In this document: positions 9,648 to 64,000 of the stretch, one piece after another | Position numbering within the stretch: position 1 is the stretch's first letter | How the letters are laid out: every line of letters starts with the position of its first letter | Source of the DNA: Taklimakanibacter albus | GTDB lineage: Bacteria > Pseudomonadota > Alphaproteobacteria > Rhizobiales > Aestuariivirgaceae | Reading direction: 5' to 3' | Length of the DNA stretch: 64,000 bases | Assembly (NCBI RefSeq): GCF_016595235.1 | Contig: NZ_JAENHL010000007.1 | Location: 1,772,765-1,836,764 of the forward strand | Translations under genes and position numbers: made by a program | The notes under the pieces: model-generated | Databases searched by the model: none | What the model saw: the letters and a program-made list of their open reading frames with translations, nothing else | What the model was told of the DNA's origin: nothing

Positions 9648-10531
9648 GATGCTCCATATCGGTCATGGAAGGTCGCGAGCGCCCGCTCATAGCGCCCGAG
9701 ATATTCATTGGCATGCGCCACATAATCGACGCCCGGCGCGTTGAGATGCAGCTCGGACACCATGCCCCACATCGCCTCGCGCAAGGCGGAGGCCGTCTTC
9801 ATCGCATCGAACGCGCGGAGCACGGCCTCACTGGGGCTTCGATCGAAATAGATTTCCAGCGCCTGGCGCTCTTCCGCCTCGTTCAGCGAGTTATTCGCGG
9901 CGATATTGGCGAGATCGAACATCGCAGTGCCGAAGCCGCCATATTCCCAGTCGATCAGCCAGATGCGCTCGCCGTCATCCATGAAATTGCCGGGCAGCAG
10001 ATCGTGATGGCCGAAGACCACTGGCAGCGGAATCTGCGCATCCTCGAGCGCATCGACCGCAGACAGCCAGCGCGGCACCTCGAGCTTGAGGCGGTGGAAG
10101 CCTTCGGTGAGCGTGTTGCCGTAGTCGCGCAGCACATGGAAGACCCAGAAGATCGAGGCCGGCCCGGTCACCAGCCGCTTCATGTCGCGATGGCACTTGT
10201 GCACGATATCGACGCAGCGCTCGAGATTCTTCCGCACGTCCTCTTCGCTGAAGGTATGCGCCTCGATGAAGCGCACCACCATGAGCCCCGGCTCGGCATG
10301 GACGACTTCCGGCGACAGCCCGGCCTCGAAGGCGGCGCGGCTGGCGCGCAATTCGCGGTCGCGGAACACATGATGGCAGGGGAAATCCTCCCCCACCCGG
10401 GCGACATATTTGCCGCGCTCGTCGCTGACGATGAAGCTCGCATTGCTCAAGCCGCCTTTGAGCGGCTGAAGCGTGACCGTCCCCCGCCAGCAGGGGAGTT
10501 TGCGCACCCGTTGTTCGGCCGTATCACTCAT
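9644..10531 (-). CDS. Choline/ethanolamine kinase-like phosphotransferase
   Basis: A 295-residue aminoglycoside-phosphotransferase/choline-kinase fold protein. The catalytic loop VFGHHDLLPGNFM (Brenner motif HxDxxxxN) and the metal-binding IDWEYGGFGTAMFDLA are intact near residues 170-205. FIVSDERGKYVARVGED is the N-terminal ATP-side lysine region. Family members phosphorylate choline, ethanolamine or other small alcohols. Its place between the permease and dehydrogenase genes, joined to both by four-base overlaps, links it to uptake of a quaternary or methylated amine. A true choline kinase would divert choline to lipid; a different hydroxylated substrate is equally possible. Confidence 0.78.
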   Translation of the reverse strand: MSDTAEQRVRKLPCWRGTVTLQPLKGGLSNASFIVSDERGKYVARVGEDFPCHHVFRDRELRASRAAFEAGLSPEVVHAEPGLMVVRFIEAHTFSEEDVRKNLERCVDIVHKCHRDMKRLVTGPASIFWVFHVLRDYGNTLTEGFHRLKLEVPRWLSAVDALEDAQIPLPVVFGHHDLLPGNFMDDGERIWLIDWEYGGFGTAMFDLANIAANNSLNEAEERQALEIYFDRSPSEAVLRAFDAMKTASALREAMWGMVSELHLNAPGVDYVAHANEYLGRYERALATFHDRYGAS

Positions 10532-12507
10532 GCCAGACCCCGCTTGGCTTTCAGTCGCTCGACCCAGGCGGTGATCAGCCGGTCGGCGATGATGCCGATG
10601 AAGGCGATGGCGAGACCGGCGACGAGACCTTTGCCGGAATCGGCCTTGGACAGCGCCTTGAACACTTCCTGGCCGAGATCGCGCGTGCCGATCATGGCGC
10701 AGATCACGATCATGCTGAGCGACAGGAGGATCGTCTGGTTGAGGCCGAGCATGATTTCCGGCATCGCCACCGGCAATTGCACCCGCCAGAACAGCTGCCG
10801 TTTCGTGCAGCCCGCCGCGGTGCCGGCTTCGATCAGCTCATGCGGCACCTGCCTGATGCCATGATTGGTGTAGCGGATTGCCGGCACGACGGCGAAGGCA
10901 ACCGTGGCGATGAGCGCCGTCACGTCGCCGACGCGGAACAGCATCACCACCGGAATGATGAAACAGAAGGACGGGATGGTTTGCAGCGTGTCGATGAAAG
11001 GCGTCACGACCTTCTCGACCCGGTCGGAGCGCGACGCCCATACGCCGATCGGTATGCCGATGGCGGCCGCGATCAGCGCTGCGACGCCGCAGAGATAAAG
11101 CGTAGCCATGGTCTGGACCCAGAGCCCGGTGGTGGCGCAGAAGGCGGTGAGGAGCGCCACGATGAGGGCAAGCCAGATACCGCCAAGCCGCCAGCCGGCG
11201 AAAGCGAGAAGCAGCACCACACCGAGCCACGGCAGGCCTTCGAAGAAGGCGCGCAAGGGATTGAGCACATACAGCAGGAAGGTGATACGCACCGCCTCGA
11301 TGACGTCGAAGTAATTGACCGTGACCCAATCCACCGCCGCCTTCCAGGCCGGCGCCGTGGTGAAGGTGATTTCGTTCGGCACCTTGCCGAAGGCCGGCAG
11401 AACGAGGCTCGCCAAGGTCGTCACGGCGAGAACAGCCAATATGGCGATGAGGCTCGCATGGCGCTGAACCCACGGCTTTTGCGTCGTGTCCTGCTCGGGC
11501 CGCTTAAGGGCGGCGGCCTGGCTCACCCGGTCGAGCACGATGGCGAGGACGACAATGGCGAGGCCCGCTTCCATCGCCTGGCCGACTTTCAGCGCGCGCA
11601 AGGCGAGGAGCACGTCATAGCCGAGCCCGCCGGCGCCGATCATCGAGGAGATGATCACCATATTGAGCGCCAGCATGATCACCTGGTTGACGCCCAGCAT
11701 CAAAGATGGCTTGGCGCTCGGCACCAGCACGCGCCACAGCTTCTGCCGTCTTGTACAGCCCGCCATGTCGGCGAAGTCTTTGATGTCCTGCGGTACCTTT
11801 GAGAGTCCGAGCACGGTGGCGCGCACCATGGGCGGCGTCGCGAAGAGGCCGGTGGCGAGCAGCGCCGAGACCGGGCTGTTGCCGAACAGGAGCAGCATCG
11901 GGATGAGATAGGCGAAGGTCGGGATCGTCTGCAGGAGATCGAGCGCCGGCATGATCAGGACGCGGTTCACCTTCGGATTGAGATAGCCCCAGATGCCGAG
12001 GAGAAGGCCGGTCACCACGCAGATCGGCACGCAGACCAGGATCAGCGCCAGTGTCAGCATGGCGCTGTCCCATTGCCGGAACAGCGCGATGGCGAGGAAG
12101 GAGAGACCGCTGAGCAGCGCCAGCTTCAGTCCGCCGAAGCGATAGCCGACAAAGGCGGCGACGGCGCAGACACCGACCCAGGAGAAGCGCGGCAGCGTGA
12201 TGAAGCCTTCGGTGAGATAGATGCGATAGCCCTTGGCGAGAAAACCGATGGCGAGCTGCAGCGGAATATTGACGAGATCGGCGAGGCCGCGTGTCGCCCA
12301 AGTGAAGGTCGCCTTGATCCACAGCATGATCGCGCTGATCCACTCGGCGAAGGGGATGATCGCTTGCGTCGGATAATCCCAGGCGCCCGGCACGATCCAG
12401 GAGATGATGAAGGCAATGGCCACAACGCCGGCGATGAGTGCCGCGACACGCCAGCCGGGCAGCGCGCTTATCCGCGAATCGCTATGGGTCAGGACGGCAT
12501 CGGTCAT
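10528..12507 (-). CDS. Fused double permease of a glycine betaine/proline-type ABC transporter
   Basis: A 659-residue inner-membrane protein made of two ProW-like permease domains in tandem. Each half has its own helix bundle and its own ATPase-contact loop: AGCTRRQKLWRVLVPSAKPS in the first half (about residue 245) and AGTAAGCTKRQLFWRVQLP in the second (about residue 570). ProW-type permeases are normally one domain that dimerises, about 280-350 residues, so this is a duplication plus fusion that would form the whole channel from one chain. About a dozen hydrophobic segments are visible. Start and stop overlap the neighbouring genes by four bases. It belongs with the ATPase at 12504 and the binding protein at 13674. 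Confidence 0.88.
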   Translation of the reverse strand: MTDAVLTHSDSRISALPGWRVAALIAGVVAIAFIISWIVPGAWDYPTQAIIPFAEWISAIMLWIKATFTWATRGLADLVNIPLQLAIGFLAKGYRIYLTEGFITLPRFSWVGVCAVAAFVGYRFGGLKLALLSGLSFLAIALFRQWDSAMLTLALILVCVPICVVTGLLLGIWGYLNPKVNRVLIMPALDLLQTIPTFAYLIPMLLLFGNSPVSALLATGLFATPPMVRATVLGLSKVPQDIKDFADMAGCTRRQKLWRVLVPSAKPSLMLGVNQVIMLALNMVIISSMIGAGGLGYDVLLALRALKVGQAMEAGLAIVVLAIVLDRVSQAAALKRPEQDTTQKPWVQRHASLIAILAVLAVTTLASLVLPAFGKVPNEITFTTAPAWKAAVDWVTVNYFDVIEAVRITFLLYVLNPLRAFFEGLPWLGVVLLLAFAGWRLGGIWLALIVALLTAFCATTGLWVQTMATLYLCGVAALIAAAIGIPIGVWASRSDRVEKVVTPFIDTLQTIPSFCFIIPVVMLFRVGDVTALIATVAFAVVPAIRYTNHGIRQVPHELIEAGTAAGCTKRQLFWRVQLPVAMPEIMLGLNQTILLSLSMIVICAMIGTRDLGQEVFKALSKADSGKGLVAGLAIAFIGIIADRLITAWVERLKAKRGLA

Positions 12508-13673: not shown

Positions 13674-14639
13674 TTACTGCGCCCAGGCCTTCCACTTCGC
13701 TTCATTGGCAGCGATCCACGAGGCCGCGACCTCGTCGAGCGACTTGCCTTCGAGGTCGACCTGGCCGGAAAGCTTGTTCAGCTCCGCTGTGTCGATCTGA
13801 TAGGCCTTGGCGACCTTGTAGGCGACCGGCCATTTATCCTTCATGCCGGCCCAGGAATATTTCCAGATCTCGCCATGCGGCTTGCCGCAATCATAGGCTT
13901 TGTCGGGATTGCCGCCCCATTTCGGGTCGGTGTAGCACTCGGGCGTGTATTCGGGAAAATTCACCCATTCGCCCTCATATTTCGCCGGCGCCCAATGCGG
14001 TGAATAGATCCACAGCATGATCGGCGCCTTGCGCTGATAGGCGGAATCGAGCTCGGCAAACATCGCCGCATCGGTGCCGGCGTGGACGACGGTGAAGGGC
14101 AGGTCGAGGGCCACGACACGTTCGTCATCGAAACCTTCCCAGGTCACCGGCCCGCCGAGATAGCGGCCCTTGGGCGCCGTTTCCGGTGTCGAGAAGGCTT
14201 CCGCGCATTTCGGGTCCTTGAGCGCTTCCCAATTGGGAAGGCCCGGGCACTTCTCCTTCATATAGGCCGGATACCACCATTCTTCCTTGGCCTTGGGTCC
14301 GAGCATGCCGAGCTTCTCGGTCTGTCCGGTGGCGTCCGAGGCCTTCATCGCCTCGCCCGCCGTCGTGTCCCAGAATTCGACGCCCACCGTGAGATCGCCA
14401 TTGGTGAGACCGGTGGTGAGGCTCGAGAGGTAGTCGGCGGTCGGATATTCGACCGTGTAACCAAGCTTCTCGAGGATGCCGCCAAGGATCTTGGCGTTGA
14501 GATTGACGCTGGTCCAGTCGAACAGAGCGATCTTGATCGGATCATTCGACTCGACGGCATAGGAGGTCATCGGCGTCAGCGCCGTCGCCGCCAGAGCGGC
14601 AAGGCCAAGCAAGGCACGTCTTACGCGCAATCTGCTCAT
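13674..14639 (-). CDS. ProX/OpuAC-type glycine betaine/choline binding protein
   Basis: Periplasmic substrate-binding protein, 321 residues from ATG 14639, chosen because it is preceded by a strong ribosome site (GGAAGAGGA) and gives a short Arg-rich, hydrophobic signal peptide ending near TSYAVES. A longer in-frame start at 14708 would add a non-signal extension. The mature protein has the OpuAC pattern: FDWTSVNLNAKILGGILEKL, TVGVEFWDTT, VTWEGFDDERV and several Trp/Tyr residues that in this family build the aromatic cage for quaternary amines. First gene of the minus-strand operon ending with the dehydrogenase. Betaine, choline, proline betaine or dimethylglycine are all possible ligands. 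Confidence 0.88.
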   Translation of the reverse strand: MSRLRVRRALLGLAALAATALTPMTSYAVESNDPIKIALFDWTSVNLNAKILGGILEKLGYTVEYPTADYLSSLTTGLTNGDLTVGVEFWDTTAGEAMKASDATGQTEKLGMLGPKAKEEWWYPAYMKEKCPGLPNWEALKDPKCAEAFSTPETAPKGRYLGGPVTWEGFDDERVVALDLPFTVVHAGTDAAMFAELDSAYQRKAPIMLWIYSPHWAPAKYEGEWVNFPEYTPECYTDPKWGGNPDKAYDCGKPHGEIWKYSWAGMKDKWPVAYKVAKAYQIDTAELNKLSGQVDLEGKSLDEVAASWIAANEAKWKAWAQ

Positions 14640-14691
14640 GGATGTAAATCCTCTTCCTGGCTCCCAGAACACGGACCTCGATTGTTGTACT

Positions 14692-14709
14692 TTTGTCCGC
14701 AGCGACAAA
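14692..14709. promoter_or_regulatory. Inverted repeat in the proX-deoR divergent spacer
   Basis: TTTGTC at 14692-14697 and GACAAA at 14704-14709 form a six-base inverted repeat with a six-base spacer, 53 bases upstream of the proX-like start. A regulator site for one of the two divergent transcripts is plausible. The regulator is unknown. Confidence 0.35.
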
Positions 14710-14832
14710 TGTCACGGCACAAGCCCTTGAGTGTCAATGCTAAACCGCAATTTTCGTGGCATTTTGTGGATTTGAGAGAATTTTCTTGCCGTAATTGACC
14801 GTTTTAGGGGAATATTGATCGAAATCGGGCAA

Positions 14833-53294: not shown

Positions 53295-54595
53295 GATCTG
53301 TCTTTCCTGATGACCCGGCGTGTCTTGCCCTCGCTGCGCGGCAGGCTGTTGAAGGGAGAGAGCGTCACCCGCGCCGAGACGCCGATATCCTGCTTGATGC
53401 GCCGCTCGATTTCGGCCACCAGCCCTTCGGTCTGCGCCGCACCCAGTGCAAGCTCGGCCTCGACCGGCAGCAGGTCGTAAGGTCCGCTTCCCTCGAGCAC
53501 GATCCGGTATTCGCCCGACAGCGACGGAAACTGATGGAGGACCGCCGCCACCTGGGTCGGGAAGGCATTGATGCCGCGCACCACCACCATGTCGTCAGAG
53601 CGCCCGACGACACGGAAGCGCGGCGCGGTGCGGCCGCAGCGCGCTTTGCCGGTGCCGGTGAGAAGGATGATGTCGCCGGTGCGGAAGCGCACCAGCGGCT
53701 GGCATTGCCGGCTCAGATGAGTCAGCACCAGCTCGCCGCGCTGGCCCTCCTGCCAGGCAAGCACCGCGCCCGTGGCCGGATCGATCAGTTCCGGTTGCAG
53801 GACATCGAGCGCCATGAAATGCAGGTCGTTGTCGACCTCGCTCTGGCCGGCGAAATTGCAGAAGACGTCGGTCACGCCATAATTGGAATTACGCACCGAA
53901 AAACCCCAGACGGTTTCGAGCCGCTGCCGGAATTCCGGGTCGTCGAGCCCGGCCTCGCCGCCGAACAGCCCCAGCCTGAGGCCGAGATCGCGGGGCTTCA
54001 GCTCCGGATAGTGCTCGGCGATGACCTGCTCCAATACCGCCGGATAGGAGGGCGTGCAGGAGATCGCGGTGATGCCGAGCTCCTTGATCGTGCGCACCAG
54101 GAGCTGGGTGTCGCCGACGCCGAAGGGCACCACGGTGGCGCCCGTCGCCTCGAGGGTCGCATGGTCGGTGAAGCCGCCCATCCACAGGCGGTAATTGAGG
54201 CAGTGGACGACCCGGTGGCCGGGGCCGAGGCCGGCCGCCGCCTGGGCGCGCCCGCCGATCACCGCCGTCTCATGGGCGTCCCGGGCCGAGAGCGCCAGAT
54301 TCATCGCCGTGCCGGTGGTGCCGGAGGTCCGGTGGATGCGGGCGACCGCCGTTTCAGGCGCCGCCAGATAATCGCCGAAAGGCGGGGTATCGCGCTGGCT
54401 CCGGCGCAGCATCTCCTTGTCGATGAGGGGCAGCTCGGCAAGGCCGGCGAGGCGCGCTGGTGGCCGTTTCCCGCCCCAGGCGCGCCGATGCAGCGCCGAC
54501 AACGCCTGGACATAGGCGGACTGGCCCTCCCACAGGCGCTGCCGGTGGGCGGCCAGCTCGATGAGATCGGCATAATCCGCCCGCTCGATCAGCAT
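53291..54595 (-). CDS. PaaK-like aryl/acyl-CoA ligase
   Basis: A 434-residue AMP-forming ligase of the phenylacetate-CoA ligase family. The ATP loop is HRTSGTTGTAMNLALS (about residue 90), with GGEAG near 215, FRTGDIILL and the C-terminal GRSDDMVVVRGINAFPTQV hinge. PaaK proteins are about 430-440 residues. It probably activates an aromatic or aliphatic acid as CoA thioester for the adjacent enoyl-CoA hydratase. No other paa genes are present. A divergent TetR gene lies 67 bases away and is the likely regulator. Confidence 0.88.
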   Translation of the reverse strand: MLIERADYADLIELAAHRQRLWEGQSAYVQALSALHRRAWGGKRPPARLAGLAELPLIDKEMLRRSQRDTPPFGDYLAAPETAVARIHRTSGTTGTAMNLALSARDAHETAVIGGRAQAAAGLGPGHRVVHCLNYRLWMGGFTDHATLEATGATVVPFGVGDTQLLVRTIKELGITAISCTPSYPAVLEQVIAEHYPELKPRDLGLRLGLFGGEAGLDDPEFRQRLETVWGFSVRNSNYGVTDVFCNFAGQSEVDNDLHFMALDVLQPELIDPATGAVLAWQEGQRGELVLTHLSRQCQPLVRFRTGDIILLTGTGKARCGRTAPRFRVVGRSDDMVVVRGINAFPTQVAAVLHQFPSLSGEYRIVLEGSGPYDLLPVEAELALGAAQTEGLVAEIERRIKQDIGVSARVTLSPFNSLPRSEGKTRRVIRKDRS

Positions 54596-54662: not shown

Positions 54663-55337
54663 ATGGACAATGAGGCCCCCGACCCCCTGATTTTCGCCGC
54701 CACCCTGCTGGCCGTGGCCCGGGACGGCGCGGCGCGCAAGACCGACCGCACCCGCGCCCGCCTCCTTGCCGCTCTGGCCCGCGAGCTGGGCTCGGGTCTC
54801 ACCCGGCACGATCTCAAGGTGGCCGAGGTGACGAGGACGGCCGGCCTCGCCCATGGCACCTTTTACCGTTATTTCCCCGACATGCCGGCAGCGGTCGAAA
54901 CCCTGATCGAGGAATTCTCGCACTTCGTGCAGATGCATCTCGTTGCGGCACGGACCGGCACCGAGACGGATTCGCGCGAGCGGGTGAAGGCGGCGACACT
55001 CGTCTTCGCCCGCCTGTTCCGCCGCAATGCCGGGCTGATGCGCTGCCTGATCGGTCTCGCGGCCGAGGAAACCGCCTTTGCCCGCGCCTATCGCCGGCTC
55101 AACCGCGACTGGTATGGCCGCGTCGCCGGCGCCATCGCCAGGGATCGTGAGGACGGCCGGCCAAGTGAGGAGCACCTCCCCGCGGCCTATGCGCTGGGCG
55201 GCATGATCGACGAGTTCCTGGCGCAGATCTATCTCCGCCGCGAGCCGGCGCTGGCGCATCTGGCCAATGACGAAGAAAGGATCGCCGGGATCCTCACCGA
55301 CCTGTGGTGCTTTGGTGCCTATGGCGGGAAGGGATAG
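54663..55337 (+). CDS. TetR-family transcriptional regulator
   Basis: A 224-residue TetR-family protein. The N-terminal domain has TRARLLAALARELGSGLTRH and VTRTAGLAHGTFYRYFPDMP, the helix-turn-helix with the family GTFYRYF. The C-terminal ligand domain is helical (about 70-224). No ribosome site is seen before ATG 54663, so translation may be leaderless or start elsewhere. It is divergent from the PaaK-like/enoyl-CoA hydratase pair and converges on the deacylase gene. Confidence 0.85.
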   Translation: MDNEAPDPLIFAATLLAVARDGAARKTDRTRARLLAALARELGSGLTRHDLKVAEVTRTAGLAHGTFYRYFPDMPAAVETLIEEFSHFVQMHLVAARTGTETDSRERVKAATLVFARLFRRNAGLMRCLIGLAAEETAFARAYRRLNRDWYGRVAGAIARDREDGRPSEEHLPAAYALGGMIDEFLAQIYLRREPALAHLANDEERIAGILTDLWCFGAYGGKG

Positions 55338-56306
55338 TCAGGCACACACGCCGAAGCCCGCAACCCATTCGCCTTCCTTGACCAGCAGATGCGTACCGAT
55401 CCACATGATGACGCCGGAAGCGGGCGCCAAAAGATCACACTGATCTTGTCCGAAGAGATCCTTCATCCGCGCCAATGGCCGGCCAGCGCAAACGCGATCC
55501 CCACTTTTGACGAGCGGATAGAATAGCCCTGAAGCCGGCGCGACCAGGAACCGGTAATCCTGCAAGACGATCGACTCCGACGGCGCCACTCCTTGTGCGC
55601 CATCGATCATTCCGAGATGGCGGGCGATATTGAGGACGCCGGTCACGTGAAAGGCGACATCCTCCGCATTCAGCATCGGAAACCTTCCAGCTTCCGATAC
55701 GACCGCGGGGATACTCCTGTTCGCCAGCGCCGTGCAGGAACGGCCAGGACGCGAAAGCCAATCGGCCGGTATCCGAAACATCACGTCCGGGTGAAAACAC
55801 CTGGCGAGCTCCTCGTTGCGCGAGGAGAGGCCGCCGTCGCGGGTTTCCTGATAGACCACATATTGGATGAGGTCTTCGCCGGTATCTCCGCCATGCATGT
55901 CGACCACGGCATCGGCGCCCTCCGCCCACTCGCTCACCAGCGCGTGCGCCAGCGCATCGGAAAACGTGCCTTCGGCATTTCCGGGATAGAGCCAGTGCAT
56001 GTTCTTTCCATCAACCGGACTCGCGGCCTGATGCTCGAAGGCTCCGGCGATATTGACCACGGGGAGAATGGAGACGCGACCACGCAGCTCCTTCGCCTTG
56101 ACGATGGCGGCGATCTGATAGGCAGCCTCGACGCTCGACGCCTCATTGACATGAACGCCGGCCATGACACAGAGCCGGGGCCCCGGCAATTGACCGACGA
56201 CCTCGAGCAAGGGCCAGCGATATCCGGACAGACCGGGATTGGCGAAAGTGACATGGCCGTGTCGTAATCCCGGCTCGTTCATCGCTTCGTTCCAGCATAT
56301 CTGCAT
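55338..56306 (-). CDS. Succinylglutamate desuccinylase/aspartoacylase-family deacylase
   Basis: A 322-residue zinc deacylase of the M14-like AstE/AspA family. Zinc ligands are His52 and Glu55 in AGVHVNEASS and His138 in VVDMHGGD. A C-terminal beta domain (about 235-322, ASGLFYPLVKSGDRV) is present. Family members remove acyl groups from N-acyl amino acids (aspartate, succinylglutamate, acetyl-diaminobutyrate). ATG 56306 follows GGAGAGAG. It is the last gene of the nine-gene block at the right end, so it probably releases the free amino acid or cleaves an acylated intermediate of that pathway. Confidence 0.82.
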   Translation of the reverse strand: MQICWNEAMNEPGLRHGHVTFANPGLSGYRWPLLEVVGQLPGPRLCVMAGVHVNEASSVEAAYQIAAIVKAKELRGRVSILPVVNIAGAFEHQAASPVDGKNMHWLYPGNAEGTFSDALAHALVSEWAEGADAVVDMHGGDTGEDLIQYVVYQETRDGGLSSRNEELARCFHPDVMFRIPADWLSRPGRSCTALANRSIPAVVSEAGRFPMLNAEDVAFHVTGVLNIARHLGMIDGAQGVAPSESIVLQDYRFLVAPASGLFYPLVKSGDRVCAGRPLARMKDLFGQDQCDLLAPASGVIMWIGTHLLVKEGEWVAGFGVCA

Positions 56307-56338
56307 GGAAGTCTCTCTCCTTCGGATTTTCACGCCTG

Positions 56339-57487
56339 TCAGGCCCGCATCAGGCTCAAGGCGTTTTCGAGATCGTCAATGAGATCGCGTGGATTTTCCA
56401 GGCCTATGTGAAGCCGCACGACACTGCCTCTCGCCGGCCAGGGCTCCGCCGTCCTGACGGGGTCGGCCGGATAGATCAGGCTTTCATACCCACCCCAGGA
56501 CGCGCCGATGCCGAACAGCTTCAGCGAATCGTAGAGCAGCGCGATCCGCGCTTTGTATTTTTCATCCAGGACGATCGAGAACAGGCCGGAGGCGCCGGCG
56601 AAATCGCGCACCCAGATCTCATGACCCGGCGAGCTCTCCAGGGGCGGATAGAGCACTCTGGTGACCAGCGGATGTTTCTCGAGCCACCGGGCGACCGCCA
56701 TCGCCGACTCCTGATGGCGCGACAACCGCACGGCCAAGGTCCGCAGGCCGCGCTGCGCGAGATAGGCTTCATCAGGACCGATACATTGGCCGAGATGACG
56801 CGCCGCCGCCTCGATCGCGGGCCATGCGTCTTTCGAAGCCGCCACTGAGCCCGCGAGCGCGTCGGAATGCCCGACGACATATTTCGTTGCCGCCTGGATC
56901 GATACATCGGCGCCAAAGTCCAGTGGCCGGAAGAAAACAGGCGAAGCCCAAGTATTGTCGGCCAGGATCTTGATGCCGCGCGCCCGGGCGGCCTTCGCAA
57001 TGGCGGGAAGGTCCTGCATCTCGAAAGTCTGCGATCCCGGGGACTCGACGAAGATCAGTCGGGTGGTGTCGTCGAAGTAGTTTTCGATATTCGCCACGGC
57101 GGGCGGATAATAGATCGTCTTCACCTGGATCTTGGGGAGATGGCTGTCACAGAAGATCCGGGTCGCCCCATACACGCTGTCGGCTACGAGGATTGAATCG
57201 CCGGGACGCACAAAGGCCAGGATGGATGTCGCGATCGCCGCGAGCCCGGAAGGAAACAGCGCGCAGCCCGCACCGCCTTCGAGTTCGGCGATGGCATCGG
57301 CGAGACACCAGGTCGTCGGCGTGCCGTTTCTTCCATAATAGAGACGGCGTTCCTTGCTCTGCCTGATCTCGAAGATCTGCGCATAATTCTCGAATAACAC
57401 CGTCGAGGCGCGATAGATTGGTGGATTGACGATATTGTGCGCGGCATCGGCCCGGCCGGCCCGCACGACTTGCGTGGACGCTTTCAT
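56339..57487 (-). CDS. Cys/Met-metabolism PLP enzyme (cystathionine beta-lyase-like)
   Basis: A 382-residue PLP-dependent lyase or synthase. The PLP Lys is Lys202 in QAATKYVVGHSD, the phosphate-binding Tyr is in LYYGRNGTP (about residue 50-57), and DNTWASPVFF (about 177-186) contains the conserved Asp that contacts PLP. These match cystathionine beta-lyase (MetC) and relatives, which split a C-S bond in cysteine-type substrates. It is followed by the deacylase gene 33 bases later and shares four bases with the class V enzyme upstream. The exact S-substituted amino acid is unknown. Confidence 0.87.
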   Translation of the reverse strand: MKASTQVVRAGRADAAHNIVNPPIYRASTVLFENYAQIFEIRQSKERRLYYGRNGTPTTWCLADAIAELEGGAGCALFPSGLAAIATSILAFVRPGDSILVADSVYGATRIFCDSHLPKIQVKTIYYPPAVANIENYFDDTTRLIFVESPGSQTFEMQDLPAIAKAARARGIKILADNTWASPVFFRPLDFGADVSIQAATKYVVGHSDALAGSVAASKDAWPAIEAAARHLGQCIGPDEAYLAQRGLRTLAVRLSRHQESAMAVARWLEKHPLVTRVLYPPLESSPGHEIWVRDFAGASGLFSIVLDEKYKARIALLYDSLKLFGIGASWGGYESLIYPADPVRTAEPWPARGSVVRLHIGLENPRDLIDDLENALSLMRA

Positions 57488-58734
57488 TTCCCTGCGGTGA
57501 TCCCGCGCGAGCTGATGTCCATGATCGATTGGACATCGCTCAGATCATTGTAGAGATGGAAAGAAAAGCGGATCATGCCGCGCCTGACGGAGAAGCGCAC
57601 GCCGCCGCGCTTCAGCGCCAAAGCGAGCGACGACAGTTTTTCGTCGACCAGCTGATTGTCCGCGATGTCCGACCTCATGCCGAGGGACACGATATGTGAC
57701 CGGGCCTCACCGGGTGTCCCTGCGCGAACGGAATAGCCAAGTGTCTGGAACGCCTTTGAAAGCGCACGCGCCAGACCAATGACGTGCATTTCGATGATCC
57801 GGGGCCCGACCGCGATCAATTGCGTCAACGCCACCTGTAAAGACGCCAGCGATACCCAGTTCGGTGTCCCGAGATGAAAGCGTGCTGATCCCGCAGCGAA
57901 GGTGACGCCATCCGCCAATGTCTGAACATGCAACAACTGATTGGCGAGTCCGGTGGACGATATGTAGATCGGCCGGATGCGCTCGGACCATTGCTGCGAA
58001 CAATAGAGAAAGCCGCAACCAGGAAGGCCGAGCAGGCCCTTGCCGGAGGGTGCGCAGAGAGCCCCGACCGGCGACTTCCGGACGTCGATTTCCAGGAGAC
58101 CAGCGCTCTGCGCGGCATCGACGAGCAGGAATATCCCGCGCTCCCGGCAGCGCAGGCTCAGATCCTCCAGATTGCAGCACAGGCCCGGCAGGAAGCTGAC
58201 ATGAGAGACGACGATCATGCGGGTCGACGTATCGACGAGCAGCTCCAGCGCCGTGAAATCCAGACGGACGCCATCGGCAGCGACCGCCGATCTGATCTCG
58301 ATGCCCCTGCTCCTGAGGCCGAGGACGCAGGCCAGTGCCGCCTGGTGCTCGATGCCCGGACAGACGATCACATTGTCGCCTTGCGCCCAAGGGAATCCAT
58401 GCAGGATTGCGTTGAGGCCTTCCGAGACATTCCGGGTAATGGCGATCTCGTCCGCTTCGGCACCGATGAGCTGTGCAAACAACGAGCGGACATTCTGGAA
58501 AATCTCGGCGCGGGCGGCATGTCTCTGCTCGCCCTTCGTTTGATACTCCATCTCGACAACCGCGGCTTCCAAGGCGGCAATCGAGAGCAGGCCTTGGGAA
58601 GCGCAATCGGCATAGAGAGGTGCGCCAGCGAACTCCCGCCTAGCATGCTGCAAAGCGGTGGCGCCGACGACTCCCGGAGCCGTGGCGCCCTGATCCGCCA
58701 AGGGCTGCGAACTAGTCATGGTCGAAGCGGCCAT
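57484..58734 (-). CDS. Class V aminotransferase-fold PLP enzyme (cysteine desulfurase/CsdA-like)
   Basis: A 416-residue class V PLP enzyme. The PLP Lys is Lys232 in APSGKGLLGLPGCG, with the metal-free aspartate Asp206 and Gln209 in LVDAAQSAG and His130 in GIEHQAAL. The class includes cysteine desulfurase, selenocysteine lyase, cysteine sulfinate desulfinase and isopenicillin N epimerase; length and sequence features do not single out one. ATG 58734 overlaps the dioxygenase stop region; ATG 58719 is an alternative. Together with the thiol dioxygenase upstream it suggests handling of a cysteine sulfinate-like compound. Confidence 0.8.
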   Translation of the reverse strand: MAASTMTSSQPLADQGATAPGVVGATALQHARREFAGAPLYADCASQGLLSIAALEAAVVEMEYQTKGEQRHAARAEIFQNVRSLFAQLIGAEADEIAITRNVSEGLNAILHGFPWAQGDNVIVCPGIEHQAALACVLGLRSRGIEIRSAVAADGVRLDFTALELLVDTSTRMIVVSHVSFLPGLCCNLEDLSLRCRERGIFLLVDAAQSAGLLEIDVRKSPVGALCAPSGKGLLGLPGCGFLYCSQQWSERIRPIYISSTGLANQLLHVQTLADGVTFAAGSARFHLGTPNWVSLASLQVALTQLIAVGPRIIEMHVIGLARALSKAFQTLGYSVRAGTPGEARSHIVSLGMRSDIADNQLVDEKLSSLALALKRGGVRFSVRRGMIRFSFHLYNDLSDVQSIMDISSRGITAGK

Positions 58735-59257
58735 CCAAACGGAAAACCCTGGATGTATTGCGCTCAAAATTCGTGGCGCCAGTGCCGTGCACATTGAGAG
58801 CGACGGCGATCTCGGATGTGGGATTGACCAAGGTATGGATATTGGGACGCTGCGGGCTTACCGACCAGACATCCCCCGGATGATGATAGACGCTGCGTCT
58901 GGGGATAGCGACGTCGCCAATCGCCGGGTCCGCTTCGTAATGCGTCTCGAGCAGCACGCCGGCGATCATCCCCGACACATCCCAATATTCGTGGTCATGG
59001 ATGGGCGTGTTTTGTTTCGGCGCCCAGATCGTCGCCAGAATGGTGAAGCTGCCGTCTTCGGCACTCCACAGCGGAATCTTTCGCCGTTCATTCGGATCCG
59101 GCTCGATCCTGTCGTCGGCAAGCAGGCTTCCCGGCTCCAGGAACGACGCGATCTCGCGACCGATGGCTGCGAGCGAGCCTTCGCTCCAGCCGAAAGAATC
59201 CATTTTCTCATCCCGCAGCTGTGTGAGCTTCTGCGCGAGACTGTCGATATTGCTCAT
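58712..59257 (-). CDS. Cysteine/thiol dioxygenase-family cupin
   Basis: A 181-residue cupin of the cysteine dioxygenase type I family, which uses non-heme iron and oxygen to turn a thiol into a sulfinate. The iron ligands are His87 and His89 in TPIHDHEYWD and His141 in PNIHTLVNP. The family length is about 185-200. Members include cysteine, 3-mercaptopropionate and cysteamine dioxygenases; I cannot say which this is. The start shares four bases with the GntR regulator and the stop overlaps the class V enzyme, so the three are translated together. Confidence 0.85.
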   Translation of the reverse strand: MSNIDSLAQKLTQLRDEKMDSFGWSEGSLAAIGREIASFLEPGSLLADDRIEPDPNERRKIPLWSAEDGSFTILATIWAPKQNTPIHDHEYWDVSGMIAGVLLETHYEADPAIGDVAIPRRSVYHHPGDVWSVSPQRPNIHTLVNPTSEIAVALNVHGTGATNFERNTSRVFRLDGRFDHD

Positions 59258-59925
59258 ATTATCCTCGTCAATTTGATATCCTTGTTCGCGTCGCCTTGGG
59301 TGAGGCCGCCGAGCACCACCCTGCGGCCTTCCTCGACATGCGCGGCGGCAAGCTCCACCGCCCGTTCCGGCTCGTTCCCGCCAATGGCTTCGATGAGATC
59401 GCGATGCCCCTGGAAGGTGCGGCCGGTGCGCCGCCTTTCGAACCAGGCGTAGCGCAGGATGCGCTCCATCCGGTCCAGCATGGTGATGGTGATCTCCTCC
59501 AGATATTTGTTGCCGGTTGCGACCGCGATGGCGGCGTGGATTTCACGGTTGGCCGCAATCAGCGCCTCCTCATCGGCGGTCTCATCGGCATAGATCTGAT
59601 CGAGTCGCTGCAGGTAGGCCGTGTCGATGCGGCCAGCCGCCAGGCGTGCGGTGGCCGGTTCGATGATGGCGCGCAGATCATAGAGCTGCACGACATCGCC
59701 AAGACTGATATTCGTGATGAGATAGCCACGTCGTGGCAGGGCCTTGATCAGGCCGCTCTGATTCAATTGCGCCAGCGCATAGCGGACGGGCGCCTTGCCG
59801 ATCCCGTAGCGGCTGGCCAGTTGCGCCTCGCTGATCTGGCTGCCGGGCAACAATGAGCAGGTGATGATGTCCTGCCGGATCAGTTGCAGCGCATTCTCGC
59901 CCAGATGGGGCTTGTCGATTGTCAT
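59254..59925 (-). CDS. GntR-family regulator with FCD domain
   Basis: A 223-residue regulator. Residues 14-70 are a GntR winged helix (IIRQDIITCSLLPGSQI-type start and SRYGIGKAPVRYALAQLNQ), followed by a FadR/VanR-type C-terminal FCD helical domain (about 85-220) with metal-binding-type His and Asp. Such regulators sense small acids, amino acids or acyl compounds. ATG 59925 has AGGAG about ten bases upstream. It sits between the transporter and the catabolic genes, so it probably controls the whole unit. Confidence 0.87.
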   Translation of the reverse strand: MTIDKPHLGENALQLIRQDIITCSLLPGSQISEAQLASRYGIGKAPVRYALAQLNQSGLIKALPRRGYLITNISLGDVVQLYDLRAIIEPATARLAAGRIDTAYLQRLDQIYADETADEEALIAANREIHAAIAVATGNKYLEEITITMLDRMERILRYAWFERRRTGRTFQGHRDLIEAIGGNEPERAVELAAAHVEEGRRVVLGGLTQGDANKDIKLTRII

Positions 59926-59962
59926 CACCAGCGATCTCCTGTGTCGAACGGGCCGGGGGGAA

Positions 59963-59994
59963 GATTCCGGAGAAGCAAGCCTGCTCCTCCGGAA
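59963..59994 (-). terminator. Hairpin between binding protein and gntR (attenuator or mRNA stabiliser)
   Basis: Nine-base arms ATTCCGGAG (59963-59971) and CTCCGGAAT (59986-59994) just after the binding-protein stop at 60000; on the minus strand followed by CTTCCCCCC. As with the chvE hairpin, it can raise binding-protein output and lower read-through into the catabolic genes. Confidence 0.6.
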
Positions 59995-59999
59995 TGATC

Positions 60000-61049
60000 T
60001 TACTTGCTGATTACATCCATGAAGCGCTTCTGCAATTCGTCCTGATGCGCGGCGATCCACGCCCAGTCGGGAACCGCTTGCCGCGCCCAGTTCTCCGGCG
60101 TCGACGCACGGAACGGACGGTCCGCCTCCGGCACCTGCGCCGCAGCCTCCTTGTTCGGCGTGTCATAGACAACCGCCTTGCTGAAGGCCAGATGAGCCGA
60201 CGGGTTGAGGATGAAGAAGTCGAAGAACTTCATGGCGGCCTCCTTGTTCGGCGCATTTTTTGCGATCGACCAGATACCCGGATCCCGGATGGCCTGATTG
60301 AAGGTGAACGAGACGGGCGCCCCCTCCTTCATCAACGCGACGGCGCGCCCCGACCACATGATGGACATGTCGGCTTCACCGGAACGCATCAGATTCTGGC
60401 TCTGATCGCCGGTCTTCCACCAGGAGACGATATTGGGCTTGAGCTCCTCCAGTTTCTTGGCGGCCCGCTCGACATCCAATGGAAACAGCTTGTCGACCGG
60501 AACACCATCCGCCATCAGCGCCAGCATCATCATCCAGCTTTCGGCGCCATTATCCATCAGAGCCCGGCTGCCCGGAAACTCCTTCACATTGAAGAAGTCC
60601 GCCCAGTCTTTCGGCTGGTGATCCTTCGGATACTTCTCGGTGTTCCAGGCCATCACGCCGGCGCCGGAGATCTGGACGATGCCATTCTCCGAGCAGGTGC
60701 CCGGCAAGCCGTGTTTCTCGATATTGGGCAGCTTTGCGCAGTCGATCTTCATAAGCATGTCCGCGAATTTGATCGATTCGTCCGGGCTCGAATTGACGAT
60801 ATCCCATTCGACCTTGCCGGCCTCCTGCATCGCCTTCAGCTTCGCCCACTGCTCGTTGGAGCCGGACGATATCGCGATGACCTTGATGCCGGTCTCTTTG
60901 GTGAAGGGCTCGAAGAAATTCTCCTTGAGCGCCTTTTCGAAGATGCCGCCCGGCGTAACCACGACGAGCTCCTCGGCGCGGGACTCGATGGGGCCGGTGA
61001 GCAGCGCGGCAGCTGCCAGCAGGCCATAGACACTTTTCCAGATGCGCAT
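60000..61049 (-). CDS. PotD-like periplasmic binding protein (ABC family 1)
   Basis: A 349-residue periplasmic binding protein. A signal peptide (YGLLAAAALLTGPIESRAEE) precedes a mature protein starting LVVVTPGGIFEKALKENFFE, PFTKETGIKVIAISSGSNEQ and SGAGVMAWNTEKYPKDHQPK, the pattern of spermidine/putrescine-type and Fe/opine-type extracellular solute-binding family 1 proteins. It belongs to the PotABC-like set transcribed with it. The linked catabolic genes suggest an amino-acid-like organosulfur or N-acyl compound rather than a polyamine. Confidence 0.85.
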   Translation of the reverse strand: MRIWKSVYGLLAAAALLTGPIESRAEELVVVTPGGIFEKALKENFFEPFTKETGIKVIAISSGSNEQWAKLKAMQEAGKVEWDIVNSSPDESIKFADMLMKIDCAKLPNIEKHGLPGTCSENGIVQISGAGVMAWNTEKYPKDHQPKDWADFFNVKEFPGSRALMDNGAESWMMMLALMADGVPVDKLFPLDVERAAKKLEELKPNIVSWWKTGDQSQNLMRSGEADMSIMWSGRAVALMKEGAPVSFTFNQAIRDPGIWSIAKNAPNKEAAMKFFDFFILNPSAHLAFSKAVVYDTPNKEAAAQVPEADRPFRASTPENWARQAVPDWAWIAAHQDELQKRFMDVISK

Positions 61050-61057
61050 GTTACCCT

Positions 61058-61858
61058 CTATTCCTTCTGTTGCGATGGGATACGCTTCATTCGATTCTGC
61101 AAGATGGTGATGACCGCCAGGAGCAGAATGGTTCCGACGGTTATCGTCGTCGCCACCGCCGCGAGCACCGGTGAGACGCTGAAATCGATGTCCTCGAACA
61201 TCTTCCGCGGCAACGTCTTGCCCTGCGTGTCGGATATGAAGAAAGAGACGACGGCCTCATCGAAGGACACGAGGAATGAGAAGATCGCGCCGATGACGAT
61301 TGACGGCGAAAGCAATGGCAGCGTCACATGGATGAAGGTCTGCAGCCTGGTTGCGCCAAGGCCGCGCGCGGCGGTTTCGAGAGTTCTGTCATAGGCATGG
61401 AGCTGCGAGCTGATGCACAGATAGGCGAAGGGCGTGGCCAGAATCGTATGAGCGACCACGAAGCCCAGAAACGTTCCCGTCAGGCCGACCGCGGAAAACA
61501 GCTTGTAGAAAGCGAGCGCACTGACGATGCCGGGGACGACGGTCGGTGAAAGCAGCACCAGGCGGAGTGATTCCTTGAGCCGTGGATTGCTCACTCTTTC
61601 GAGACCGAACGCCGTGCTGAGGCTGATGGCCGCGGCGATTACGGCAGCCACGATGGCGATCTTCAGGCTGAACAGCGTCGCCGATTGCCAGTCGGCGTCG
61701 GAGAAATAGAGCCGATACCAGTCGAAGGTGAAGCCGCGCGGCGGGAAGCGCAGATACGGGTCGGTCCCAAATGACATGAAGGCAATGAGAAGGCTGGGCA
61801 GGACCAGGAATGCCAATACGGCCCAGGCGATGCATTGGACGAGACGGGACACTTTCAA
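61058..61858 (-). CDS. PotC-like ABC permease
   Basis: A 266-residue inner-membrane permease with first helix CIAWAVLAFLVLPSLLIAFM, contact loop ETAARGLGATRLQTFIHVTL (about residue 165) and SFLVSFDEAVVSFFI, the PotC/PotI signature. The start is ambiguous: TTG 61858 has GGGAG seven bases upstream and overlaps the previous stop (TTGA); GTG 61852 is the alternative. The frame is open further upstream but has no initiation signal. Heterodimer partner of the permease at 61855. Confidence 0.83.
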   Translation of the reverse strand: MKVSRLVQCIAWAVLAFLVLPSLLIAFMSFGTDPYLRFPPRGFTFDWYRLYFSDADWQSATLFSLKIAIVAAVIAAAISLSTAFGLERVSNPRLKESLRLVLLSPTVVPGIVSALAFYKLFSAVGLTGTFLGFVVAHTILATPFAYLCISSQLHAYDRTLETAARGLGATRLQTFIHVTLPLLSPSIVIGAIFSFLVSFDEAVVSFFISDTQGKTLPRKMFEDIDFSVSPVLAAVATTITVGTILLLAVITILQNRMKRIPSQQKE

Positions 61859-62739
61859 GCGGCGCTCCCTTGTCTTTTGTCCATATGGCGCAGGCGGGAG
61901 AGCATCGCCAGGCAGACCGTCGCCGTGGCGAGCAGCACCACCGACATCGCAGCGCCTTGCGCCCAGTTCAGATTCTCGCTGATCTCGCGGCCGATGAGAG
62001 TGGCCACCATCATGCTCGCGGGTCCGCCAACCAGCGACGGCACCACGAAGAAGCCGGTGGACAGGACGAATACGAGCGTGAAGCCCGCGATGACACCCGG
62101 CAGGCATAAAGGCAACGTGACATGAATGAAGATCCGCAGCCCGGTCGCGCCGAGACCGCGCGCCGCCGTCGGGAGTTCGCGGGGGATGGAGGCGAGATTG
62201 GTGTAAAGCGGCAGCACGACATAGGGCAGGAGGACATGCACCATGACGGTGATCACCGCGCCCTTGCTGTACATGAAGCGCAGCGGCTGATCGATGAGTC
62301 CCAATGTGAGCAGGAGATCGTTCAGGACGCCGCGATATTGGAGCACCACCGTCCAGGCATAGGTGCGCAGCAATACGCTGGTCCATAGCGGGACCATCAC
62401 GCACGCACCGATAGCGGCGGCGCCGATGGCGGATGATCTCGACATCAGATAGGCGACCGGGAAGCCGAGCGCCGTGCAGATGGCGCCGACCAGGGCGCTC
62501 ATCCACAAAGTCCGCCACAGCACGGAAAGATAGGTCATGTCGAGAAGGGTCGAGAAATGGGCGGTTGAGAGGCCCCCATCGACCACACTGAGCGACAGAA
62601 AATCGAAGAGCGGCACGAAATAGAGCGCCACATAGAGGACGAGCGCGGGCGCCAGCAACAGCAAGGCCACCAGAGCCCGGCGGTTTCCGAGCGCCAGCCG
62701 GAGCGGTCTGCCGGACGATACAATGCTTGCTGCGGTCAT
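61855..62739 (-). CDS. PotB-like ABC permease
   Basis: A 294-residue inner-membrane permease: LVALLLLAPALVLYVALYF first helix, RTYAWTVVLQYRGVLNDLL, contact loop RELPTAARGLGATGLRIFIH (about residue 195) and TGFFVVPSLVGGPASMMVAT. This is the PotB/PotH pattern. ATG 62739 shares one base with the ATPase stop (TGATG), so translation is coupled. Confidence 0.85.
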   Translation of the reverse strand: MTAASIVSSGRPLRLALGNRRALVALLLLAPALVLYVALYFVPLFDFLSLSVVDGGLSTAHFSTLLDMTYLSVLWRTLWMSALVGAICTALGFPVAYLMSRSSAIGAAAIGACVMVPLWTSVLLRTYAWTVVLQYRGVLNDLLLTLGLIDQPLRFMYSKGAVITVMVHVLLPYVVLPLYTNLASIPRELPTAARGLGATGLRIFIHVTLPLCLPGVIAGFTLVFVLSTGFFVVPSLVGGPASMMVATLIGREISENLNWAQGAAMSVVLLATATVCLAMLSRLRHMDKRQGSAA

Positions 62740-63866
62740 CACGCGCGTCCGTCGGCGGGATAGATGAAGGCGCTGGTTTCGTCCCACTGCAGCGATACGG
62801 CGTCGCCCTGGGCGGCATGACTGCCGGCAGACAAGGCCCGGCTGAGATAGATGGCGCCGGAGGCGTGGCGCACGATGCGCGTCGTTGTCCCGCCGGTAAA
62901 CTGGACATCGATGAGAGTGCCGCTCACCCGAGAATCTGGTTTGCTATTGAGGCTCACGGCTTCTGGACGGACGGCGATCTCGACCTTGGCGCCGAGAGCG
63001 ATGCTCTTTCCCTCCGGCAGTTGCCCGGCCAGCACCTTTCCGCCATCGAGCTTCACCTGCCCCTTGCGGCCGGCAGTGGCGATGAGCTGACCTGGAAAGA
63101 AGTTATTGTCGCCGACAAAGTCCGCGACGAAGCGAGAGGATGGCCGATCATAAAGCTCACGCGGTGTCGCAAACTGGCTGAGCCCGCCCTGGTTGATGAC
63201 GGCGACCCTGTCGGAAAGACTGAGCGCCTCGTCTTGATCATGGGTGACGAAGACGACGGTGATCCCCAATTCGCGTTGGATCTGCTTGATCTCGATCTGC
63301 ATCTCCTCGCGCAGCTTCTTGTCGAGCGCGCCCAAGGGCTCATCCATCAGGAGAAGCGCCGGCTGAAAGACGATGGCGCGCGCCAGCGCGACGCGCTGCT
63401 GCTGTCCGCCGGACAGCTGATGCGGCAGCCTCTCCCCGAGGGCCGACAGGCGCATCCGCTCCAGCGCATTGGCGACCATGGGACCGCGCTTCGCCTTCTC
63501 GATGCCGCGCATCTTGAGCGGAAAGGCGATATTTTCGGCCGCGGTCATATGCGGGAAAAGCGCGTATTTCTGGAACACATGCCCGAAGTTGCGCCGGTGC
63601 GGCGGGATATCTGTCAGGCGCTCGCCGCCGAGAAACAGTTCCCCCGAATCAGGCTGTTCGAAGCCGGCTATGATCATCAGGAGAGTCGACTTGCCCGACC
63701 CGCTTGGGCCCAGCAGGGACACGAATTCACCGGCGGAAATGCCGAGAGTGACATCGTCCACCGCCACGGCCTGACCAAATTTCTTGCTGACCGCCTCAAC
63801 GCGCATCTCCCGTCCGGCCACCCTGGCCGTTCGGTCATCGGCAAGCCTCAACTGCTGCTCTCTCAT
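62739..63866 (-). CDS. PotA-like ABC ATPase
   Basis: A 375-residue ABC ATPase with Walker A GPSGSGKST, Q-loop [15 protein letters not shown], signature [15 protein letters not shown], Walker B LLLMDEPLGALD and a C-terminal TOBE domain (about 270-375). ATG 63866 is chosen because AGGGCGGA precedes it and a credible promoter lies just upstream; ATG 63911 is in frame but falls inside that promoter. It is the first gene of the right-end operon. Confidence 0.87.
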   Translation of the reverse strand: MREQQLRLADDRTARVAGREMRVEAVSKKFGQAVAVDDVTLGISAGEFVSLLGPSGSGKSTLLMIIAGFEQPDSGELFLGGERLTDIPPHRRNFGHVFQKYALFPHMTAAENIAFPLKMRGIEKAKRGPMVANALERMRLSALGERLPHQLSGGQQQRVALARAIVFQPALLLMDEPLGALDKKLREEMQIEIKQIQRELGITVVFVTHDQDEALSLSDRVAVINQGGLSQFATPRELYDRPSSRFVADFVGDNNFFPGQLIATAGRKGQVKLDGGKVLAGQLPEGKSIALGAKVEIAVRPEAVSLNSKPDSRVSGTLIDVQFTGGTTTRIVRHASGAIYLSRALSAGSHAAQGDAVSLQWDETSAFIYPADGRA

Positions 63867-63894
63867 TCGGTCGTTCCGCCCTGATATTTTTTCT

Positions 63895-63922
63895 AACATA
63901 TCAAGTGACATGTCAGAGTCAA
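63895..63922 (-). promoter_or_regulatory. Promoter with embedded palindrome upstream of the right-end operon
   Basis: On the minus strand a -35-like TTGACT (63917-63922) and a -10-like TATGTT (63895-63900) are 16 bases apart. The 10-base perfect palindrome TGACATGTCA (63906-63915) lies in the spacer, a standard place for a repressor such as the GntR protein encoded in the same operon. About 30 bases separate the -10 element from the first ATG. The remaining 75 bases to the right edge show no gene. Confidence 0.6.
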
Positions 63923-64000
63923 TAGGGCGTGTTTAGAGAACAGCGTCAGAGGAGGAAGCGCGGGACGAAACCCGGCGTATCGCGTTCAGAAGGAGAAGCG

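Follow-up and report, generated by a model that had tools for sequence, protein, structure and literature searches.

Two described bacterial systems, and a gene arrangement found in rhizobial loci, come closest to the subject of this analysis, a block of nine genes in a 64,000-nucleotide stretch of Taklimakanibacter albus DNA (contig NZ_JAENHL010000007.1, positions 1,772,765 to 1,836,764; the whole stretch is called the window here). The first is the Msdo cluster of Advenella mimigardefordensis DPN7 and Variovorax paradoxus B4, where, in the available part of the source, msdo genes are clustered with genes for a CBL and a rhodanese, the Advenella cluster also holds a PAAT importer and a LysR gene, and Msdo takes mercaptosuccinate via sulfinosuccinate to succinate and sulfite, the role of the CBL going unexplained there (PMC5373536). 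The second is the catabolism of S-(2-succino)cysteine (2SC), encoded by the scm/yxe operon of Bacillus subtilis and its 2SL variants; the routes described in the accessible parts of two papers all start with acetylation by an acetyltransferase, followed by a flavin monooxygenase or the 2SL lyase and then an N-acetylcysteine deacetylase, with cysteine being recovered (PMC9706529, PMC12757645). The third is represented by rhizobial loci such as L003, L004 and L092, in which a deacylase 37–42% identical to that of the window lies beside homologous Pot-type importer genes. The window block shares a CBL-type lyase, a cupin thiol dioxygenase and an ABC importer with the Msdo clusters, and an importer and the proposed deacylation of a cysteine S-conjugate with 2SC catabolism. 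We put at about one half the probability that its genes make up a complete catabolic cassette whose substrate is an acidic cysteine S-conjugate, probably in N-acylated form.

All nine genes follow one another on the minus strand, between 63911 and 55338, and fill the block. Domain searches, checks of the reading frames and, for the dioxygenase, matches to solved structures assign them to a PotA/B/C/D-type importer, a GntR regulator with an FCD domain, a cupin dioxygenase, an Aminotran_5 enzyme, a Cys_Met_Meta_PP enzyme and an AstE_AspA enzyme, confirming the families, number and strand given in an earlier note on this DNA. In gene order the joints measure -1, -4, +8, +74, -4, -8, -4 and +32 bases (minus denoting overlap), the last gap shrinking to 5 bases with GTG 56333 as the deacylase start; the overlaps described in that note are thus real, but those of 1–4 bases occur at four of the eight joints and not at most of them. 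Stronger evidence that the genes form a unit is the absence of the whole 8.66-kb block (55328..63985, no strand assigned) from relatives, the same site being empty in all three of the same-genus genomes compared there. In a DNA search of the genus, which covered five genomes with T. albus itself included, G435, G437 and G247 align to the window up to about 55,327–55,333, and comparison with the contig past the window end places the restart of homology at 63,984–63,986. In each of these three genomes the end of a TetR gene abuts the end of a converging metallo-beta-lactamase (MBL)-fold gene with few bases between, and the junctions are tight. The fourth relative, G436, is uninformative for this site because its aligned stretch stops near 53,635. 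A class V homologue at E<=1e-30 is absent from the other 68 of the 69 family genomes, and therefore at least that gene has not been relocated elsewhere in those genomes. Gain of the block as a unit in the T. albus lineage would be the simplest reading of these comparisons, loss as a unit being less likely. The two junctions have four bases, TCAG, in common when inspected by eye, and terminal repeats of at least 14 bases are absent from both block end regions. Foreign base composition was considered and set aside, the GC content of 61.1% against 62.3–63.0% nearby giving no clear signal. Whatever its substrate, the block illustrates cleanly how an apparent whole pathway can come to lie in the chromosome between two genes. 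Past the window end (L058, about 9643–10923), a separate 1.28-kb stretch with a 387-residue frame is missing in G435, where the junction is otherwise gapless; this stretch may be an insertion sequence.

The widest joint, the 74 bases between the solute-binding protein and GntR genes, bears on whether one unit or two is present. A strong hairpin lies there on the minus strand (59964..59995), the fold of 59926–60010 having an energy of -33.6 kcal/mol (z -2.73), matched by 2 of 200 shuffled sequences, and the GC content at third codon positions is slightly lower in the four enzyme genes (0.71–0.75) than in the importer genes (0.77–0.82). Both observations would suit importer and enzyme genes that are chance neighbours, carried on two transcripts bordered by the hairpin. 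We consider this very unlikely, given that both halves lie inside the one block missing from relatives and that the combination of importer and deacylase recurs elsewhere. The hairpin is possibly an attenuator or a 3'-stabiliser.

If the block is a cassette of the kind proposed, the Pot-type importer, under control of the GntR/FCD regulator, would bring the conjugate in, the aspartoacylase-family enzyme would strip its N-acyl group, and the CBL-type lyase would then eliminate the thiol to give pyruvate, ammonia and a carboxylated thiol, which the thiol dioxygenase would convert to a sulfinate. The leading candidate for the substrate is 2SC; with 2SC or N-acetyl-2SC as the conjugate, the thiol released by the CBL would be mercaptosuccinate, and the sulfinate would break down to succinate and sulfite. 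The order of uptake, deacylation, C–S cleavage and thiol oxidation, already put forward in the earlier note, is a sensible one, backed by independent partial clusters and by the published arrangement of Msdo, CBL and importer. In contrast to the window, the 2SC operons, as far as the available portions of their descriptions go, are without a beta-lyase or a dioxygenase (PMC9706529, PMC12757645), and the families returned by domain searches of the nine window proteins do not include those of acetyltransferases, flavin monooxygenases or class I lyases.

When fumarate succinates cysteine, the product is a damaged metabolite that is chemically stable. The cassette, perhaps together with Msdo/CBL clusters generally, could represent an undescribed route for succinated cysteine, in which N-acyl-2SC is deacylated, a CBL forms mercaptosuccinate and a dioxygenase leads on to succinate and sulfite; we regard this wider proposal as speculative and rather improbable. 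Were it true, the Msdo clusters would gain a natural source of mercaptosuccinate, the pairing of a beta-lyase with a thiol dioxygenase would explain why msdo genes adjoin CBL genes, and the known thiol dioxygenases would be joined by one able to function in the absence of a His-Tyr pair kept by every relative compared here. In the open-licence literature searched, PMC5373536 was the sole related paper found, and an action of CBL on 2SC giving mercaptosuccinate was not found; neither 'mercaptosuccin' nor 'cystathionine' occurs in the text of PMC9706529.

The main argument for function is that like enzyme types have been assembled more than once from different branches of their families. A search with CBL found a locus of Aminobacter SR38 (L008) that holds a CBL, a CDO-family gene, a rhodanese, a branched-chain amino acid-type importer, an IclR gene and an aspartoacylase-family gene; two further loci had been fetched early for their known CBL or deacylase matches nearby. 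With the Aminobacter dioxygenase as query, the 12 best plasmid loci, itself included, were all examined, eight of these records being partly or wholly unannotated and read by tblastn, with Pfam run on L175 only. A CBL gene stands beside the Msdo-like dioxygenase gene in 11 of the 12 (10 of 11 without Aminobacter) and a rhodanese gene is present in every one, while a full aspartoacylase-family gene is found in four, namely those of Aminobacter SR38, Cupriavidus EM10, C. campinensis and C. necator C39; two more Cupriavidus plasmid loci retain only a C-terminal piece of the deacylase. Among 398 genomes of the phylum, nine Msdo-like loci in six genomes were detected, with a CBL gene adjoining in five of the nine. 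As a control, loci around other CDO/MDO-type genes contain a CBL in 0/20, a deacylase in 0/20 and a rhodanese in 4/20 cases. Related genomes were counted separately throughout, and these figures are counts of sequences rather than of independent events. Counting all 12 plasmid loci strengthened the link between CBL and dioxygenase and weakened nothing behind the odds given above. The architecture of the Variovorax VAI-C locus is like that of the published Msdo cluster. In Cupriavidus EM10 (L175) the genes run LysR, dioxygenase, rhodanese, TctC, CBL, deacylase, TctC; the placing of two TctC-type receptors (10339–11352 and 13836–14792) on either side of the CBL–deacylase pair would suit a carboxylic acid as substrate.

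A second survey started from the deacylase, an alignment of which was used to scan genome contigs, the best 80 of 238 confirmed loci being kept. The Pot-type solute-binding protein gene and both permease genes are present in 8/80, a class V enzyme in 3/80 and a CBL in 1/80 (Yersinia, 31% identity). Flanks were 7–10 kb, but some contigs end earlier (contig ends truncate L191 and L196; of the 80 deacylase loci, 26 measure less than 15 kb and 12 less than 10 kb), and absences are therefore lower bounds. The search for conserved synteny that the earlier note had suggested thus gives a divided answer, no linkage of the whole set having been found elsewhere and partial sets recurring, so that one refuting condition of that note applies to the full set but not to its parts; similarly, the statement that the combination was not recognised as a described system holds for all nine genes but not for the core of CBL, thiol dioxygenase and importer, which had already been published.

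The thiol dioxygenase (58712..59257, minus strand) was placed in the CDO/MDO superfamily by its alignment to solved structures and by a residue table, having no Pfam or NCBIfam match at E<=0.001. Its nearest solved relatives are 3-mercaptopropionate dioxygenases (3uss, E 1.6e-12, and 6xb9), with which it shares the three His ligands and the equivalent of Arg168, but which differ in having Gln at the position of its Lys60 and an intact Ser-His-Tyr triad. Alignment bears out the assignment of His87, His89 and His141 as iron ligands, these being invariant in all 38 aligned relatives. At the triad positions the window enzyme has Ala153, Asn155 and His157, whereas the triad His and Tyr are kept in 43/43 relatives, 38 of them in the residue table and five by local alignment. 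Those five comprise L002 and L039, excluded from both tree and residue table, and L196, L197 and L198, badly cut rows from fused frames that are present in the tree and were removed from the table, which then had 38 relatives; L176, a split gene, was left unscored. Lys60 corresponds to Arg60 of CDO and to the Gln of MDO. Arg166 is equivalent to Arg168 of MDO, each lying nine residues past the triad. In MDO, Arg168 makes contact with the carboxylate of the substrate (PMC8050391, seen in part).

A basic residue at position 60 combined with Arg at 168 is a feature derived here from the Msdo-like set rather than a published definition; it occurs in 13/13 Msdo-like sequences (as Arg and Arg) and in 0/25 other relatives. 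The presence of Lys60 and Arg166 in the window enzyme hints, at the level of sequence, at a thiol with two carboxylates. The 13 Msdo-like sequences form one clade (support 99/100), named by gene context and not by biochemically proven Msdo sequences, and the window dioxygenase falls outside it on a long branch (2.46), and therefore the basic pair would be either convergent or due to chance. The same residues bear on a route along the lines of the earlier note, in which N-acylcysteine or N-acylcystine would be imported and deacylated, cystine or a conjugate cleaved by the CBL, the cysteine oxidised to cysteine sulfinate, and the sulfinate desulfinated by the class V enzyme to alanine and sulfite. 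Lys60 stands where 18 of the 38 relatives, five of them not Msdo-like, have Arg, which speaks for this route; the equivalent of Arg166, however, is absent from all seven of the other relatives that are basic at position 60 without being Msdo-like (in three via a gap), and, taken with the gene neighbourhoods described below, we judge the cysteine route to be doubtful. A single-sequence AlphaFold model of the dioxygenase was discarded for its mean predicted local distance difference test (pLDDT) score of 34.9.

Close relatives of this dioxygenase are scarce. None emerged from a scan of genome contigs (95 stretches matched, 0 confirmed); among 397 genomes of the order there were two matches, one in T. 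albus itself and one 33% identical, and among 385 genomes of the class there were 20, its own included, the rest being 25–36% identical. The CDO_I Pfam model has no match in the T. albus genome. The Ser-His-Tyr triad has been described as not catalytically essential and is absent from ADO and PCO (PMC8503633, in the part seen), and a natural Ala/Asn/His variant would probe how far thiol dioxygenases need it.

The CBL-family C–S lyase (56339..57487, minus strand) exceeds the curated cutoff of TIGR01324 (447.9 versus 365.9 bits), four other listed CBL models remaining under their cutoffs, and matches MetC structures at E about 1e-101. The Lys202 named in the earlier note sits, as claimed, in a 'QAATK' motif. 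The genome has 11 further CBL matches at E<=1e-20, and the block CBL is therefore unlikely to be the sole CBL-type enzyme of the cell.

Several results weigh against the proposed cassette. Every catalytic step, the order of the steps and the substrate have been read from gene families and neighbourhoods, and the order could differ. The full nine-gene set occurs in none of the 80 deacylase loci and was found in no other genome, nor do those 80 loci contain a window-type or Aminobacter-type dioxygenase, and an aspartoacylase-family deacylase is near none of the nine Msdo-like genes in the phylum genomes. In the excerpt of PMC10966181 the triad His and Tyr are described as conserved across small-molecule thiol dioxygenases, and the H157N substitution in MDO lowers kcat about 20-fold. 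The window dioxygenase may be weak or may act on something else, because of its long branch and the loss of the equivalents of His157 and Tyr159. In a CBL tree of 20 rows, 11 of the 12 Msdo-linked CBLs form a clade (support 98/94) with the window and Aminobacter enzymes outside it, and a domain search of the nine window proteins detected neither a rhodanese nor any other family that handles sulfite.

Some of these differences also define how the block relates to the Msdo clusters. It is, as far as the trees indicate, built from other branches of the families used there, and it probably works like an Msdo cluster without being a member, because its dioxygenase and CBL fall outside the linked clades, it has no rhodanese and its importer is different. 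The Advenella cluster has a PAAT importer and LysR where the window has a Pot-type importer and GntR, the window adds a class V pyridoxal phosphate (PLP) enzyme, whose gene lies between those for the CBL and the dioxygenase, and a deacylase gene, present in the window, is found in only 4/12 and 0/9 of the Msdo-like loci.

The function of the class V fold enzyme (57484..58719, minus strand; Aminotran_5, 140.3 bits, and alignments) is the least certain part of the scheme. Its PLP lysine is Lys227 when counted from the likely start ATG 58719, and not Lys232 as had been given. The region of the catalytic-Cys loop reads RGGVRFSVRRGMIRFS and contains no Cys; in this enzyme and six aligned relatives the PLP lysine is present and the catalytic Cys absent, and cysteine desulfurase models (SufS/CsdA) score far under their cutoffs. 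Desulfinase activity is not known to need the desulfurase catalytic Cys, and the solved class V relatives include cysteine desulfurases, the C–S lyase C-DES and CsdA, a cysteine sulfinate desulfinase, which is in keeping with the cysteine route. Most of the class V relatives examined, however, have as neighbours hydrolases of the M20, M24 or aspartoacylase families, or importers for amino acids, and no dioxygenase; in one locus (L110) an amino-acid importer is joined by a class V enzyme, by an M24 hydrolase and by a deacylase that shares 41% identity with that of the window. One favourable case is that of Paraburkholderia phenoliruptrix, where a distance of about 1.5 kb on a symbiotic plasmid separates a class V gene (31% identity over residues 75–229) from a gene for cysteine dioxygenase. 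Desulfination by the window enzyme is thus possible but unsupported, and it could equally well be a second C–S lyase, or an epimerase acting on another stereoisomer, as a desulfinase. The P. phenoliruptrix cluster (L011 1458–12159), which brings together genes for a MalY-type lyase, cysteine dioxygenase, a 3-sulfinopropanoyl-CoA desulfinase and the class V enzyme, may constitute an S-(2-carboxyethyl)cysteine pathway; as a further C–S lyase clustered with a cysteine dioxygenase and a class V gene it also speaks for the proposed cassette. It is an exception among the other dioxygenase loci, most of which have only the dioxygenase or a GntR gene in common with the window.

The importer is encoded by genes for a PotA-like ATPase (62739..63911, minus strand; TIGR01187, 359.4 bits against a cutoff of 355.6), two BPD_transp_1 permeases whose top NCBIfam models, PotB (61855..62739, minus) and PotC (61058..61858, minus), are matched under cutoff, and an SBP_bac_8 solute-binding protein (60000..61049, minus). 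The last has as its nearest solved structure one labelled a mannopine-binding protein (5l9s, E 8.9e-55), with other opine receptors also near, a kinship in keeping with a ligand that would be a carboxylated N-substituted amino acid, with or without sulfur. This closeness to mannopine- and agropine-type receptors raises the alternative that the block serves the catabolism of an opine or another N-acyl amino acid free of sulfur, the CBL being a racemase or lyase, the class V enzyme an epimerase and the cupin a diverged protein, with no thiol oxidation. The racemase 9iz5 does belong to the PLP superfamily of the CBL, the cupin has lost its Ser-His-Tyr triad, and the eight loci with deacylase and Pot-type importer have neither CBL nor dioxygenase. 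Set against this are a CBL above its curated cutoff, the retention of the iron ligands and the Arg168 equivalent in the dioxygenase, and the recurrent pairing of CBL with thiol dioxygenase; on balance a sulfur-free substrate seems improbable to us, and we prefer the cysteine S-conjugate. The rhizobial loci mentioned at the outset have neighbours including IclR, hydantoinase or D-amino acid dehydrogenase genes and, unlike the window, no annotated C–S lyase or dioxygenase.

The deacylase (55338..56306, minus strand; likely start ATG 56306) is an aspartoacylase/DoeB-family zinc amidohydrolase with an AstE_AspA catalytic domain (PF24827, 63 bits), related to the structures 3cdx and DoeB 6twm, which misses the DoeB equivalog cutoff (75.6 versus 402.7 bits). 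It contains the motifs GVHVNE and DMHGGD, which we take to provide the zinc ligands. Where canonical family members presumably read 'LNR', the window enzyme and its six subfamily relatives have MHW, INH, INY, INF or IHW, and its specificity may therefore differ. In mammals, aminoacylase-3, which belongs with aspartoacylase to the M14 enzymes, removes the acetyl group of mercapturic acids (PMC11511702, seen in part). A second gene of the subfamily, 37% identical, lies elsewhere in the T. albus genome (contig C6, L087 9193–12487), divergent to an SBP_bac_3-type importer.

The regulator gene (59254..59925, minus strand) encodes a protein in which the GntR and FCD models both score above cutoff. 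At the importer end of the block, a weak promoter-like site (63895..63922, minus; TTGACT, 16 nt, TATGTT, with TG ahead of the second hexamer) was picked up in a consensus scan of 55200–64000 that returned three such sites against 2.0 expected. The ATPase frame was checked from 63866, which is its likely start because 63911 falls inside this site. The spacer contains a palindrome, TGACATGTCA, which was rejected as an operator, its one copy in the window being at chance level (1.28 expected at <=1 mismatch).

A second pairing of GntR with a dioxygenase is seen at L040 (3814–7392) and L046 (8860–9552), where a GntR/FCD regulator 38% identical to that of the window is divergent to a CDO-family gene, followed in L040 by a Cons_hypoth698 membrane protein. 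Among the Msdo-like loci, that of Cupriavidus necator C39 (L208 8001–14564) packs a pair of Msdo-like genes into 7 kb along with a CBL, a rhodanese and a distant deacylase; in Marinobacter sp. M3C (L176 8001–8596) the Msdo-like gene is split over two frames and apparently broken. In three loci the Msdo-like dioxygenase and rhodanese are apparently fused in a single long open frame (L196 from about 9194, L197 from about 9358 and L198 at about 7591–9700 on the minus strand), the frames having 857, 920 and 753 residues, respectively.

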